NCBI GenBank assembly: GCA_034722995.1
Contig: JAYEOL010000048.1
Location: 1 to 44,895, forward strand
Source of the DNA: Candidatus Cloacimonadota bacterium
GTDB lineage: Bacteria > Cloacimonadota > Cloacimonadia > JGIOTU-2
Direction: 5' to 3'
Length of the DNA stretch: 44,895 nt
Position 1 is the first letter of the stretch; the number at the start of each line of letters is the position of its first letter. Shown one piece after another: positions 20,677 to 44,895 of the stretch. The position numbers and the translations under genes are program-made. A model generated the notes under the pieces. It worked only from the letters and a program-made list of their open reading frames with translations. It searched no databases and was not told the origin of the DNA.

Positions 20677-20809
20677 GCCACGAAGAACGCCAAGATACAC
20701 GAAGGAATTAAATAACAGAAAAATTAGTATTTCTTCGTGCCCTTAGTGGTTAAAAATGAATAACAAAAAAATTAGTGTTTCTTCGTGCCTTTAGTGGCTA
20801 AAAAATGAA
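20677..20809. repeat. CCACGAAG palindromic element with tandem 48-base duplication before fusA
   Basis: Two near-identical copies (20713-20760 and 20761-20809) share the core TTCTTCGTGCC-TTAGTGG and the ending TAAAAATGAA. An inverted left arm CCACGAAG...CACGAAGGAA lies at 20678-20707, so the RNA can fold as a stem. The second copy contains the ATG of fusA; the first contains an equivalent ATG that opens a twelve-codon reading frame ending at TAG. No normal ribosome site precedes fusA. Confidence 0.75.
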
Positions 20810-22931
20810 TAGAGATTATCCTTTAGAAAAAATTCGCAATATTGGCTTAATCGCTCATATTGATGCTGGAAAAACTACAGTTACTGAGCGAATCCTATTC
20901 TATACAGGCATTTTGCATCAAATGGGAGAAGTTCATGATGGAACTGCAACTATGGATTGGATGATTCAAGAAAGAGAAAGAGGTATAACCATTACCTCAG
21001 CTGCTACAACATGTTACTGGAAAAACCATAGGATAAATATTATTGATACTCCCGGTCATGTTGATTTTACTGTTGAAGTGGAACGCTCTCTTAGAATTCT
21101 TGATGGAGCTGTTGTTATTTTTTGTGGTGTGGCAGGAGTTGAACCACAATCAGAAACTGTCTGGCACCAAGCTGATAAATATCATATTCCCCGCTTGGCT
21201 TTCATTAATAAATTAGATAGAGTTGGTGCAGATTTTAGTTATGCTCTTGAAACTGTTAAATCAAAATTGCAACCTAATTCGTTTCCTATTCAGTTGCCAA
21301 TTATGAATGGAGAAGATTTTCTTGGTGTTATCAATTTAATTGATAATAAAGCATATATTTTTGATAAAGATGAATTAGGCATAGATTACACAGTTTGCAA
21401 CATAGCAAATGAAAATGTTAAAGGAATATCTTTGCAACAAAGAGAATTAGCAGAAAATTATCGCAGTCAACTTATTGAAAAGATTGCTGAATATGATGAA
21501 ACTATTTTAAAAAAATATTTAAATGGTAAAAAAATAAGTGAGAAGGATTTAATTACTTCTATCCGCAAATTAACTCTAAGTTGTGATTTTGTTCCTGTCC
21601 TTTGCGGCTCAGCTCTTAAAAATAAAGGTATCCAGCTTATGATTAATGCTATAGTTGATTTCCTTCCTTCTCCAATAGATGTGCCTGCAATTGAAGCTAC
21701 AATTCCAGATTCAAAAAATAAGAAGAAAATTATAGTAGATGAAACCCTTCCTTTTGCAGCTTTGGCTTTTAAAAATCAAGTTAACCCTTATGTAGGGAAA
21801 CTTACTTACCTTAGAGCTTATTCTGGAAAGATCAATAAAGGTGATTATGTTCTCAATGTTAATACTGGAAAAAAGGAAAGAATAACTCGTATTCTGCAAA
21901 TGCATTCAAATAAATCTATTAATAAAAAAGCATTATATGCTGGTGAAATCTGTGCAGTAGCAGGTCTAAATAATGCAGCCTCAGGTGATAGCATAGTTGA
22001 ACTTGGTAATCCGGTTTTACTTGAAAAAATTGCGTTTGCTGAACCGGTTATGTCTATTGCTATTGAACCAAAGACTAAAGTTGATGAAGAGAATCTTGAA
22101 ATAACTTTACCAAGATTATTTGATGAGGACCCAACATATCATATAAAGAAAGATAAGGAGACAGGACAAACTTTGATTTCTGGCATGGGTGAGCTTCATT
22201 TGGAGATTTTGATTGATAGGTTGAAAAGAGAATTTAAGGTTGATGTGAATGTAGGAAAGCCGAGAGTAAACTATAAGGAAACAATTATAAATCGTGCTGA
22301 AGCTGAAGGTATATTAGATCGCAAAGTTGGTGAACATGGACAATACGGGCATGTAAAATTGAGGATAGAACCTTATTCCGACAATTCACGGATTGGAAAA
22401 TCAAAGTATAAGATTTATTTTGAAAATGCATCCTCAGAGTATGAGATTCCAAAGCATTTTCTAAATGCTATAAAAGCAGGAGTAATTGAATCTGCACAAA
22501 GTGGGGCACTTACCGGTAATAAAGTTGAAAATATAAAAGTAGTTGTAACAGGGGGTTCATTCAACCCTGTAGATTCTTCCGAATTAGCATTTAAAATTGC
22601 TGGCTCAATTGCCTTCACTAATGCACTTAGAAAAGCTAAATCTATTCTTTTAGAGCCAATTATGAACATTAATATTGTTACACCAGAAGAATATTTAGGC
22701 AATGTTATAAATGATTTGAATAGCAGAAGAGGTAAAATTATTGAAGTTTCAGATAAGGAATCAATCAAAATCGTAAATGGTTATGTTCCTTTGAATGAAA
22801 CATTTGGATATGCAACTAATCTGAGGTCAGTATCTCAAGGTAGAGCTTCTTACTCCATGGAATTTTTTGAGTATGAAAAAGTACCAGAAAATATTTCAAA
22901 CAAAATCATTAAAAAAATGCGTGGCTATTAA
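20805..22931 (+). CDS. fusA: Translation elongation factor G
   Basis: GTPase that drives translocation of tRNA and mRNA and acts with RRF in recycling. The 708-residue protein has G1 AHIDAGKT (about residues 17-24), the switch [24 protein letters not shown], and domains II-V ending [19 protein letters not shown]4 reads NKLD rather than the commoner NKMD, a variant I associate with spirochete-type and mitochondrial EF-G. Which EF-G subfamily it belongs to would need a tree, but its position between S7 and S10 argues for the main EF-G. It lacks a Shine-Dalgarno sequence because its start lies in a duplicated repeat. Confidence 0.95.
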
Positions 22932-42471: not shown

Positions 42472-42574
42472 ATTCTAAAACTGAAACCATAAATACTAAA
42501 TAAATTTGTGAAAAAATATAATCTATCTACCTATCATTACAACTTTTGAGATTAGGCAGATGAAAGGAGATACA

Positions 42575-43714
42575 ATGAAAAAATATTTACTGTCACCAGG
42601 ACCTACACCTGTGCCGTCAGAAATATTGCAGGCTATTTCTGAGCCAATGGTTCACCATCGCACCCCAGCCTTTAAGGCGATGGTCGGTCAGGCAATTGAA
42701 GGATTAAAATATGTGTTTCAAACTAAAAACGATGTGTTAATTTTCACATCTACAGGAACAGGAGCAATGGAAGGTGCTGTTTCTAATGTGTTGAATAAAG
42801 GCGAGAAAGCAATCATTATCCGAAATGGCAAATTTGCTCAACGTTGGGGAGAGATTGCTGAAAAATATGGCATAGAGCCTATTTATGTTGATTTACCCTG
42901 GGGTACAGTTGGTCAGCCAGAAACCATAAAAAAATTACTCAACAAAAATCCAGATGTAAAAGCTGTTTATACTCAATTAACTGAAACCTCAACAGGTGTG
43001 GTTATGCCTGTTAAAGAGCTTGGGGAAATAGTTAGTAAAACTGATGCATTGCTTGTAATTGATGCAATCTCTGGTTTAGGTGGTCAGGAATTTTATATGG
43101 ATGACTGGAATGTTGATATATGTGTTGCAGGTTCACAAAAAGGTTTGATGCTGCCTCCGGGACATGCCTATGCTGCTATTAGTGGAAAAGCGTGGAATAA
43201 GATTGAGACCTGCACACAACCGAGTTACTATTTTGACTGGAAAACTTATCGTAAGAAATTAGCTAAAAATACAGACCCGTTTACAGGCTCGGTTATTCAT
43301 ATCAAAGGCTTACTAAAAGCCATAGAAATAATTAAAGCGGAAGGTATTAAGGAAAGATTCCGACGCTATAAAGTATTAGCAAAGGCTTGTCGTGCTGCTG
43401 CACAAGCTCTTGGTTTAGAGCTATTCACTGGCACACCTTGTGATGTAGTTACTGCTATTAAAGTTCCGGCAGAGATTGATGGATTGGCTTTAGTAAAAAA
43501 TCTTAGAGATGAATATGGATTTACGATTGCTGGTGGACAAGCCGGAGTCAAAGGCAAAATCTTCCGTATTGCTCATATGGGATATATTGAAAGATTTGAC
43601 ATTATAGCTGTAATCTCTGCATTAGAAATGGTGTTGAAAGATTTAGGCTGGAAATTTGAATGGGGTGCTGGACTTTCTGCTGCACAGAAGATTCTTGCGG
43701 AGGAGTACAAGTAA
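42575..43714 (+). CDS. Class V aminotransferase (alanine/serine--glyoxylate type)
   Basis: PLP-dependent aminotransferase of the alanine-glyoxylate / serine-pyruvate / hydrogenase-small-subunit-like group. The 379 residues begin YLLSPGPTPVPSEILQA, contain VHHRTPAF, TSTGTGAMEGAVSN and the PLP lysine (Lys189) in VAGSQKGLMLPPG. I place the start at the second ATG, because the first one (42560) is followed by AAAGGAG, the ribosome site of the second. Its partner may be a phosphoglycerate dehydrogenase, often adjacent, but none is in this window. Substrate is uncertain: Ala, Ser and glyoxylate are the family options. Confidence 0.92.
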   Translation: MKKYLLSPGPTPVPSEILQAISEPMVHHRTPAFKAMVGQAIEGLKYVFQTKNDVLIFTSTGTGAMEGAVSNVLNKGEKAIIIRNGKFAQRWGEIAEKYGIEPIYVDLPWGTVGQPETIKKLLNKNPDVKAVYTQLTETSTGVVMPVKELGEIVSKTDALLVIDAISGLGGQEFYMDDWNVDICVAGSQKGLMLPPGHAYAAISGKAWNKIETCTQPSYYFDWKTYRKKLAKNTDPFTGSVIHIKGLLKAIEIIKAEGIKERFRRYKVLAKACRAAAQALGLELFTGTPCDVVTAIKVPAEIDGLALVKNLRDEYGFTIAGGQAGVKGKIFRIAHMGYIERFDIIAVISALEMVLKDLGWKFEWGAGLSAAQKILAEEYK

Positions 43715-43747
43715 ATTTGAACTTAAGGCAAAAATAGTAGTAAGATT

Positions 43748-43776
43748 AAAAGGCGGGAAAACAAATCCCGCCTTTT
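43748..43776 (+). terminator. Rho-independent terminator after the aminotransferase gene
   Basis: Eleven-base perfect stem AAAAGGCGGGA/TCCCGCCTTTT with a seven-base loop, 33 bases after the stop. The A and T runs make it usable on either strand, though only the plus strand has a gene before it. Confidence 0.88.
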
Positions 43777-43868
43777 ATGCACGATTTGTTCCAATATCTT
43801 AGATATACGAAAATTTATGTTAAATATTGGTAAGAGGTTGAAAGAGAGGTGATTTATTAGATTGATAT

Positions 43869-43894
43869 TACAGGATTTTTAATCCTGTATTTTT
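43869..43894 (+). terminator. Second hairpin with T tract (TACAGGATT stem)
   Basis: Perfect nine-base stem TACAGGATT/AATCCTGTA with a three-T loop, followed by five T residues. It looks like a terminator but no gene lies between it and the first one, so it may rather be one unit of a short palindromic repeat family. Confidence 0.5.
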
Positions 43895-43900
43895 AATAGA

Positions 43901-43921
43901 AACACCATTGCAAATGGTGTT
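43901..43921. repeat. Perfect palindrome AACACCATT/AATGGTGTT
   Basis: Nine-base arms with a three-base loop, six bases after the previous hairpin. No T tract follows. Together with the TACAGGATT hairpin it forms a two-stem element, like a REP-type unit. Confidence 0.6.
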
Positions 43922-43943
43922 AGATCAAAATAAAAGAAGTAAA

Positions 43944-44007
43944 TTTACCAGTTTACTAATTTACTAATTTACTAATTTACTAATTCACTAATTTACTAAT
44001 TCACCAA
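43944..44007. repeat. Tandem octamer array, eight units of TTTACTAA type
   Basis: Eight head-to-tail 8-base units: TTTACCAG, four TTTACTAA, TTCACTAA, TTTACTAA, TTCACCAA. The array ends four bases before the ATG of the next gene, in the place where its ribosome site should be; it offers no Shine-Dalgarno sequence. The period of eight means copy-number changes would shift the distance between any upstream promoter and the start codon. Confidence 0.85.
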
Positions 44008-44011
44008 AACT

Positions 44012-44895
44012 ATGACCCTAAAAATAAAATCTATTACCAAGCAATCTATTGCGAATAATATTGGTATTCAGACTAATGATATACTCCTTTCCATAAACAA
44101 CCACCCAATAAACGATGTCATTGATTACCGATTCTATCAAGCTAATGAAGTCCTGAGAATTAAAATTGAGCGAAATAATAGACCAAAAACATATTTAATA
44201 AAAAAGGGTTATTCAGAAGATTTAGGTTTAGAATTCCATCCAATAAAATATCGCAGATGTAATTGCAACTGTATCTTTTGCTTTGTAGACCAGATGCATC
44301 CACAGGCTCGTCCATCACTTAAGATTAAGGATGATGACTATAGGTTTTCATTTTTATTTGGGAGTTTTATATCATTAACAAATTTATCTGAATCTGATTA
44401 TTCAAGAATTATTAACCAGCGTCTATCTCCGCTCTATATTTCTGTTCATACAACAAATGACAATCTCAGAAAAAAAATTATGCGATATAAAACTCAATTT
44501 TCAATTAAGGATAAATTGAAATTCTTTGCTGAGAATGGAATTCAAATGCACACACAAATCGTTCTAATCCCAGACTGGAATGAAGGAAAGGAATTGGAAA
44601 GGACAATTTTTGGCTTGGCTGAGTTATATCCTTCTGTTCAGTCAATTGCTATTGTGCCAGTTGGGTTAACAAAATTTAGGGAAGGATTAACAAAAATCAA
44701 ACCTGTTGATGAAGTTTTAGCAAAAAGAGTGATTTTTGATTCAATGAAATGGCGAGAAAAACTTAAGAAGAAATATGACACGGGTTTAGTAACATTAGCT
44801 GATGAGTTTTTTCTTTTAGCAAGAGAAGAAATCCCAGAAGAAGAATATTATGATGATTTTCCTCAAATTGAGAATGGTGTTGGGATGACAAGAAA
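44012..44895 (+). CDS. DUF512 family PDZ/radical-SAM protein, 5' part (3' end outside window)
   Basis: Only the first 294 codons are in the window. An N-terminal PDZ-like part (SIANNIGIQTNDILLSINNHPI) is followed by the radical-SAM cysteine motif C-x3-C-x2-C at Cys83, Cys87 and Cys90 in CNCNCIFCFVDQMHP. The extra Cys85 sits where the family commonly has another residue. The blocks KDDDYRFSFLFGSFISLTNLSESDYSRII and RLSPLYISVHTT match the DUF512 (YP_-type, Clostridium/cyanobacteria) pattern. The family has no proven reaction that I know of. The gene has no ribosome site, because a tandem octamer array abuts its start. It begins 298 bases after the aminotransferase gene and two hairpins, so it has its own transcription unit. 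Confidence 0.9.
   Translation, partial: MTLKIKSITKQSIANNIGIQTNDILLSINNHPINDVIDYRFYQANEVLRIKIERNNRPKTYLIKKGYSEDLGLEFHPIKYRRCNCNCIFCFVDQMHPQARPSLKIKDDDYRFSFLFGSFISLTNLSESDYSRIINQRLSPLYISVHTTNDNLRKKIMRYKTQFSIKDKLKFFAENGIQMHTQIVLIPDWNEGKELERTIFGLAELYPSVQSIAIVPVGLTKFREGLTKIKPVDEVLAKRVIFDSMKWREKLKKKYDTGLVTLADEFFLLAREEIPEEEYYDDFPQIENGVGMTR

Follow-up and report, generated by a model that had tools for sequence, protein, structure and literature searches.

Does an octamer array that ends four bases before a start codon serve the gene behind it, or does it occupy the gap before that gene for reasons of its own? Giant sulfur bacteria and cyanobacteria are reported to carry short repeats ahead of start codons; we know of no reported mechanism for them. 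Here, we describe such an array near the end of a 44,895-nt stretch of Candidatus Cloacimonadota DNA (the window, meaning the whole stretch analysed; own genome, G000, 1.89 Mb). The array belongs, as one arm, to a dispersed family, in which the forward arm (F) is made of TTYACYAR units and the reverse arm (R) of their complement, YTRGTRAA. The window array alone looks ordinary. The bipolar family to which it belongs is well defined and, to our knowledge, undescribed, as such arrays are in the open-access literature searched. Its function is most likely none or incidental; a translational role is possible.

The locus and its neighbours

The gap lies between a class-V aminotransferase gene (Aminotran_5; 42560..43714, forward strand) and a DUF512/radical SAM/PDZ gene (Pfam; 44012..44893, forward strand). 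The DUF512 gene is incomplete in the assembly because a 100-N run stands at the window end, 44895 (L164, 3397-3496); its relatives are approximately 420 aa long. The preliminary description of three hairpins and an octamer array before the DUF512 start, with the array ending 4 nt upstream of the ATG, was confirmed. Hairpin 1 (43747-43758/43766-43777, forward strand) has a perfect 12-bp stem and likely terminates the aminotransferase gene upstream; a scan called hairpin 2 terminator-like and did not call hairpin 1. Most family members compared at this aminotransferase-DUF512 gap retain a CCCGCC hairpin. Hairpin 2 (TACAGGATT-TTT-AATCCTGTA, followed by a T tract; 43869-43889, forward strand) and hairpin 3 (the AACACCATT-GCA-AATGGTGTT palindrome, 9 bp perfect; 43901-43921, forward strand) are the left and right halves of a dispersed two-hairpin repeat (43864..43928, forward strand), whose outer bases, TTGAT and ATCAA, were read from the sequence.

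The array (43944..44007, forward strand) is an F arm of eight TTYACYAR units in the order TTTACCAG, four copies of TTTACTAA, TTCACTAA, TTTACTAA, and TTCACCAA, followed by AACT and the ATG at 44012. The earlier count of eight stands; the single unit sequence given with it does not, as only five of the eight are exactly TTTACTAA. The short AGTAAATTTACC palindrome preceding the array (43938-43949) may be the remnant of a centre between an R and an F arm. Also as described earlier, the DUF512 start has no ribosome site (no AGGA, GGAG, or GAGG between -18 and -4 relative to the ATG).

With Tandem Repeats Finder, the array ranked second among 30 rows for the window (score 99); the top repeat of the window is a 48-nt unit present in 2.1 copies (20711-20811, score 167). 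A two-unit pattern at ≤3 mismatches matched the window 13 times, seven of them in the array (3.3 expected; 13 reached by 0 of 100 shuffles). A perfect 9- or 12-bp hairpin by itself is not rare in DNA this AT-rich; it is because of the whole-genome and cross-genome results given below that the array and hairpins are taken to be beyond chance. Rfam identified five tRNAs in the window and no RNA family above gathering score, with four subthreshold matches at 43600-44200 (E values, 0.09 to 0.97).

A dispersed octamer family and its polarity at gene edges

A search for the same array elsewhere in the genome, a check suggested with the preliminary description, gave 34 three-unit matches at ≤2 mismatches in at least 12 separate places (reversed control, 1). 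Of 124 genomes from the phylum, 21 had any match at ≤1 mismatch (controls, all 0). The family centres on the window's genus (G000, 24 matches; G001, a MAG with 8% contamination, 125; G002, 68; G003, 15); G005, with 12 matches, is of another genus.

Among 432 units from 82 arms with three or more units, positions 1, 2, 4, 5, and 7 were T, T, A, C, and A in 95-97%, positions 3 and 6 were T, C, or A (G in only 3 and 6 units, A in 59 and 42), and position 8 was A or G; the unit detector was built on the consensus, and the only bias-free part of these figures is the contrast of A with G at positions 3 and 6, where both carry an equal penalty. Arms comprise <20 to >130 nt of octamers. A related nonamer family, TTCAACYRR, gave 95 matches in the own genome, versus 2 for its control.

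Some arrays carry further structure. A run of approximately 24 octamers in G002 (C69:2175-2366; L284) has a higher-order alternation of TTCACTAA with TTCACCAG or TTTACCAG. At four loci (L158, 2486-2760; L167, 2508-2655; L205, 2522-2698; L209, 2355-2536), the array is split in two by an inserted hairpin element whose ends are CCCCGTTAGATA ... TATCTAACGGGG, and the G003 orthologue of L158 (L207) is without it. Hairpins of ACCCTG ... CAGGGT type break arrays at the same TTYACCC position (L181, 2474-2651; L210, 2647-2705; L159, 3529-3603).

Arms were surveyed in 55 stretches around arrays of G000, G001, G003, and G005 (G001 and G005 sampled in part). The script found 90 arms, 2 of which lay inside open reading frames (ORFs). 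At many loci, R arms stand to the left and F arms to the right of a short centre (GTTAAC or GTTACC). In bounded gaps, 52 of 76 arms abutted a CDS end, where random placement within the gap gave 31.5 (sd, 3.4; maximum, 43 in 1000 randomizations). Contact between arm and gene, defined as lying within 15 nt with overlap of up to 22 nt (n = 59), was polar: the arm was F before 21 of 22 starts (p 1e-5), orthologues being counted separately, so that the 21 contacts represent about 14 distinct genes by Pfam matches and N-termini, and R at 34 of 37 stops (p 1e-7). Viewed by side, R was the arm in contact with the left gene in 28 of 29 cases and F with the right gene in 27 of 30 (left-R, 28; left-F, 1; right-F, 27; right-R, 3). 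Four contacts depart from this rule: L204 2491, where AAAGGAGA separates an R arm from a start; L168 2497, a palindrome's second arm; L187 2479; and L210 642. In 28 of the 34 stop contacts, the stop codon lies inside or overlaps the R arm (negative distances), and octamer units also occur at stop codons between convergent genes. In new data from G002, fetched afterwards, all five octamer contacts agreed with this polarity. Nonamers agreed in 20 of 27 contacts of the new data, which is weak evidence because the detector is ambiguous and assigns some nonamer runs to both orientations.

Translation, mobility, and unit number

The two arms differ in what they offer to translation. Across all 4096 four-unit combinations of the F consensus, none contained NTG, and the complements of all 4096 stopped in three frames. 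Real F arms contained 15 NTG triplets in 3456 nt and are thus imperfectly start-free. Folding gave 0 kcal/mol for pure F and -5 to -15 kcal/mol (weak) for R. With no NTG and no folding, the F arm adds neither a false start nor structure; since R stops in every frame, a gene entering it ends at once.

An SD core precedes 21 of 39 ORFs of ≥120 aa in the window, versus 5.3 (sd, 1.8) in shuffled upstream regions; the organism therefore uses SD sites, though not everywhere. An SD core was present at none of 15 starts with the F arm ≤8 nt away, a result that is nearly automatic; the informative half is the arms at 9 to 45 nt, where six of seven starts had the core. The F arm ends where the region needed by the gene begins. 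At the DUF512 gene, starts were without an SD core in 14 of 14 family genomes, with the array present or absent (a wider set has a core in 6 of 30). Since family members without the array are SD-free too, the array does not account for the missing ribosome site, and the array as a stand-in for a lost SD site was rejected on the same comparison.

We favour, with moderate confidence, the reading that the arrays are neutral or selfish intergenic repeats that grow by slippage and whose orientation is filtered by translation. The family would be lineage specific and built as R-centre-F palindromes that occupy the gaps between genes, a build that would make the arm meeting the right-hand gene F and the arm meeting the left-hand gene R. 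Arms would be tolerated where translation stays undisturbed. Just before a non-SD start, F, lacking NTG and stable structure, would be a harmless or even useful leader; where a gene has an SD site, F would stop outside it; and R would end any gene running into it immediately, in whichever frame. Whole units would be gained and lost, most simply by replication slippage, to which the differences in unit number described below point. None of the loci compared showed an insertion with a clean empty site.

Alternatively, the F arrays could form a translational leader network, in which selection would keep them as sites where the ribosome (S1-like) or an RNA-binding regulator binds or stands by, as has been put forward for the TAACTGA repeats of Beggiatoaceae. 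We consider this possible but rather unlikely. The placement of F before starts, with the arm edge mostly 1 to 8 nt from the ATG (15 of 22), agrees with it, as do the unstructured state of F and the start-side arrays kept at the plsX, BatA, ComEC, and biotin carboxylase genes in more than one genome. Array-preceded starts had an SD core in 6 of 22 cases, versus 21 of 39 window genes, a difference in the direction of a leader but not significant (p 0.06). A leader has no need of complementary arms at stops, however, and these are equally strict in placement; in addition, DUF512 starts are SD-free in relatives without the array, and the array genes have no common pathway. A further reading, in which selection acts on F and R together as paired translational punctuation marks, spread and maintained across the lineage as one bipolar element, appears doubtful to us. 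F would then be a start-free, structure-free ribosome leader before each gene and R an all-frame stop after it.

Arms were swapped among 14 palindromes, and own partners paired no better than arms taken from elsewhere (sum, -298 versus -347; sd, 20; p 0.997), in a test that is rough as arm lengths differ. Co-evolution of paired arms was rejected on this result, which also leaves RNA-structure selection, hairpin-templated copying, and maintenance of the palindromes as structures unsupported.

Hairpins 2 and 3 belong to a dispersed element separate from the octamers, with the build TTGAT ... ACAGGATT-NNN-AATCCTGT ... AACACCATT-NNN-AATGGTGTT ... ATCAA. Loci read by script gave 22 distinct two-hairpin copies, including that of the window, and a BLAST search gave hairpin matches in 7 of 21 genomes. 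In the own genome, G000, BLAST gave the window copy of hairpins 2 and 3 only. G005 has up to 27 matches to hairpins 2 and 3 besides its orthologous block and a hairpin-1 match, and G017 has 22. A kissing interaction of the two loops was rejected; they are complementary in many copies, but some, the window's included, break the complementarity (by eye).

Over a stretch that takes in the last part of the aminotransferase gene and reaches the first DUF512 codons (approximately 43580..44059), the window is unusually similar to G005. Identity per 60 nt is 91-100% except in one stretch of 81%, which is the hairpin 1 site, where G005 carries the exact reverse complement of hairpin 1 (loop flipped). 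Intergenic segments are 94-97% identical (about 95%), versus 76-82% for coding sequence. Differences at fourfold sites number 59 of 110 and 26 of 57 outside the block, compared with 2 of 17 in the last part of the aminotransferase gene. The other members of the window's genus (G001, G002, and G003) have neither hairpins 2 and 3 nor the array here; in the same gap, G001 and G002 (L032 and L035) have a conserved, structured-looking spacer, CACCAAGCGCCTG ... GTCTTGGTG.

From the block identity, the fourfold sites, the lack of these features here in the rest of the genus, and how many copies of hairpins 2 and 3 the genomes hold, we infer that the block was exchanged from a G005-like lineage. The window array would have arrived in it together with hairpins 2 and 3, the array lengths then diverging by four units. 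Windows of 60 nt outside the block also reach high identity to G005 (100% at 43040-43099; 91% at 44240-44299), and given these, strong constraint on the spacer may be an alternative to exchange.

Movement by Y1 (HUH) transposases, with the arrays as REP/REPIN-like or IS200/IS605-derived miniature elements, is a further explanation of their dispersal and palindromy that we regard as improbable. Y1 transposases were present in all four genomes searched (G000, 7 matches; G001, 12; G005, 6; G017, 1), and the TTGAT/ATCAA flanks of hairpins 2 and 3 presumably resemble the ends of some IS605-family elements. The likeness to IS200/IS605 miniature elements concerns hairpins 2 and 3 only, with their two hairpins between TTGAT and ATCAA. 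Against such movement, an octamer array stood beside the Y1 gene at 0 of 15 loci examined, of 26 matches, arm length is variable, and no GTAG or CGTC tag was seen by eye. The nearest repeats to Y1 genes were a 16-mer at about 1.4 kb (L252), a nonamer array at about 1.1 kb (L260), and a hairpin pair at about 0.9 kb (L263). No autonomous element with hairpin 2 and 3 ends was found at the same 15 of 26 Y1 loci.

The preliminary description had further proposed a contingency locus, in which octamer slippage switches DUF512 expression within the population by altering promoter-start spacing. Unit number does vary between lineages: eight units in the window versus four in the G005 orthologue (L034), with other orthologous arrays differing by one to about five units (BatA gene, 3 versus 8 in L163 versus L178; NuoG-like gene, one extra octamer in G003), all as differences between lineages with one genome per species. 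The role as a switch was not supported and is very unlikely, given the dozens of arrays dispersed in relatives, the degenerate units, the housekeeping setting, and a unit order nearly unchanged between species in two orthologous arrays (74 of 75 positions in one, 39 of 41 in the other). Linkage to surface or host-interaction genes was not found among 18 proteins scanned, whose families were mainly metabolic or housekeeping, plus ComEC, AcrB, and BatA; the array neighbours among the 18 were, besides these three, plsX, biotin carboxylase, a NuoG-like protein, PolA, RtcB, a trehalose synthase-like glycosyltransferase, DUF58 proteins, and a UPF0004 radical SAM protein. Such neighbours are atypical for phase variation.

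The two arrays of nearly unchanged order are more conserved than their flanking coding DNA (74 of 75 versus 87-91%; 39 of 41 versus 81%), and two further arrays are not (20 of 29 versus 93%; 22 of 26, with unit loss, versus 73%), comparisons that are inflated by the shared consensus and given little weight. The first two count against neutral or selfish repeats, as neutral filler need not outdo flanking coding DNA.

Also very unlikely is a transcriptional element, in which a weak -10-like TACTAA in each unit would make the array a many-register promoter for leaderless mRNA: the non-SD DUF512 starts of all 14 family genomes are consistent with leaderless starts and the T tract of the upstream terminator reaches the ATG in several relatives, but the same units occur at stops between convergent genes, and the promoter scan (12 sites in the region versus 10.4 expected) placed none in the array, on which a shared sigma-70-like promoter there was rejected.

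Comparison with known systems

The arrays resemble several known repeat systems in part, most closely the TAACTGA repeats of Beggiatoaceae. Simple-sequence contingency loci, exemplified by the uspA2 AGAT tract (PMC4679880), likewise have tandem units between upstream DNA and the start codon, with copy-number change, here seen between lineages. The octamers differ from such loci in their degenerate units, in their dozens of copies per relative's genome, and in adjoining mostly housekeeping genes.

REP, BIME, and REPIN sequences (PMC3733652; PMC3116915) are dispersed extragenic palindromes located mostly near gene ends and possibly transcribed. Dispersal, palindromy, and location mostly near gene ends are shared with them. 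REP/REPIN units are palindromes of 20 to 40 bp with a GTAG or CGTC tag, whereas the octamer arms are a variable number of short units, without such a tag by eye, and no Y1/RAYT gene was flanked by arrays at the 15 loci examined, of 26 matches.

In marine Beggiatoaceae, TAACTGA heptamers form direct repeats that are dispersed and mostly intergenic (MacGregor 2015; PMC4679880). The sets have a preferred orientation and lie a few nucleotides before starts mostly without a ribosome-binding site (132 of 170 sets); translational regulation is proposed, and no shared gene function is given for them (PMC4679880). The octamers are alike in being short, G-poor tandem units that are dispersed, mostly intergenic, oriented before starts poor in ribosome-binding sites, and without shared function; the corresponding orientation was found here, with F at 21 of 22 starts and 15 of 22 arms within 8 nt of a start without an SD core. 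Unlike the heptamers, which are nearly invariant and 7 nt long, the units here are 8 nt and degenerate (TTYACYAR in 432 units), and they form complementary arms at stops and R-centre-F palindromes (14 loci tested), compared with 1 inverted set in 170 (PMC4679880). The sequence and the phylum are different, and the present family is not a member. If neutral, its arrays would also serve to trace the exchange of intergenic DNA between genera. As a second case, from an unrelated phylum and with a complementary arm fixed at stops, the octamer family separates two explanations that are inseparable from start-side repeats alone: a leader function and a palindromic repeat of the gaps between genes, with translation filtering its orientation.
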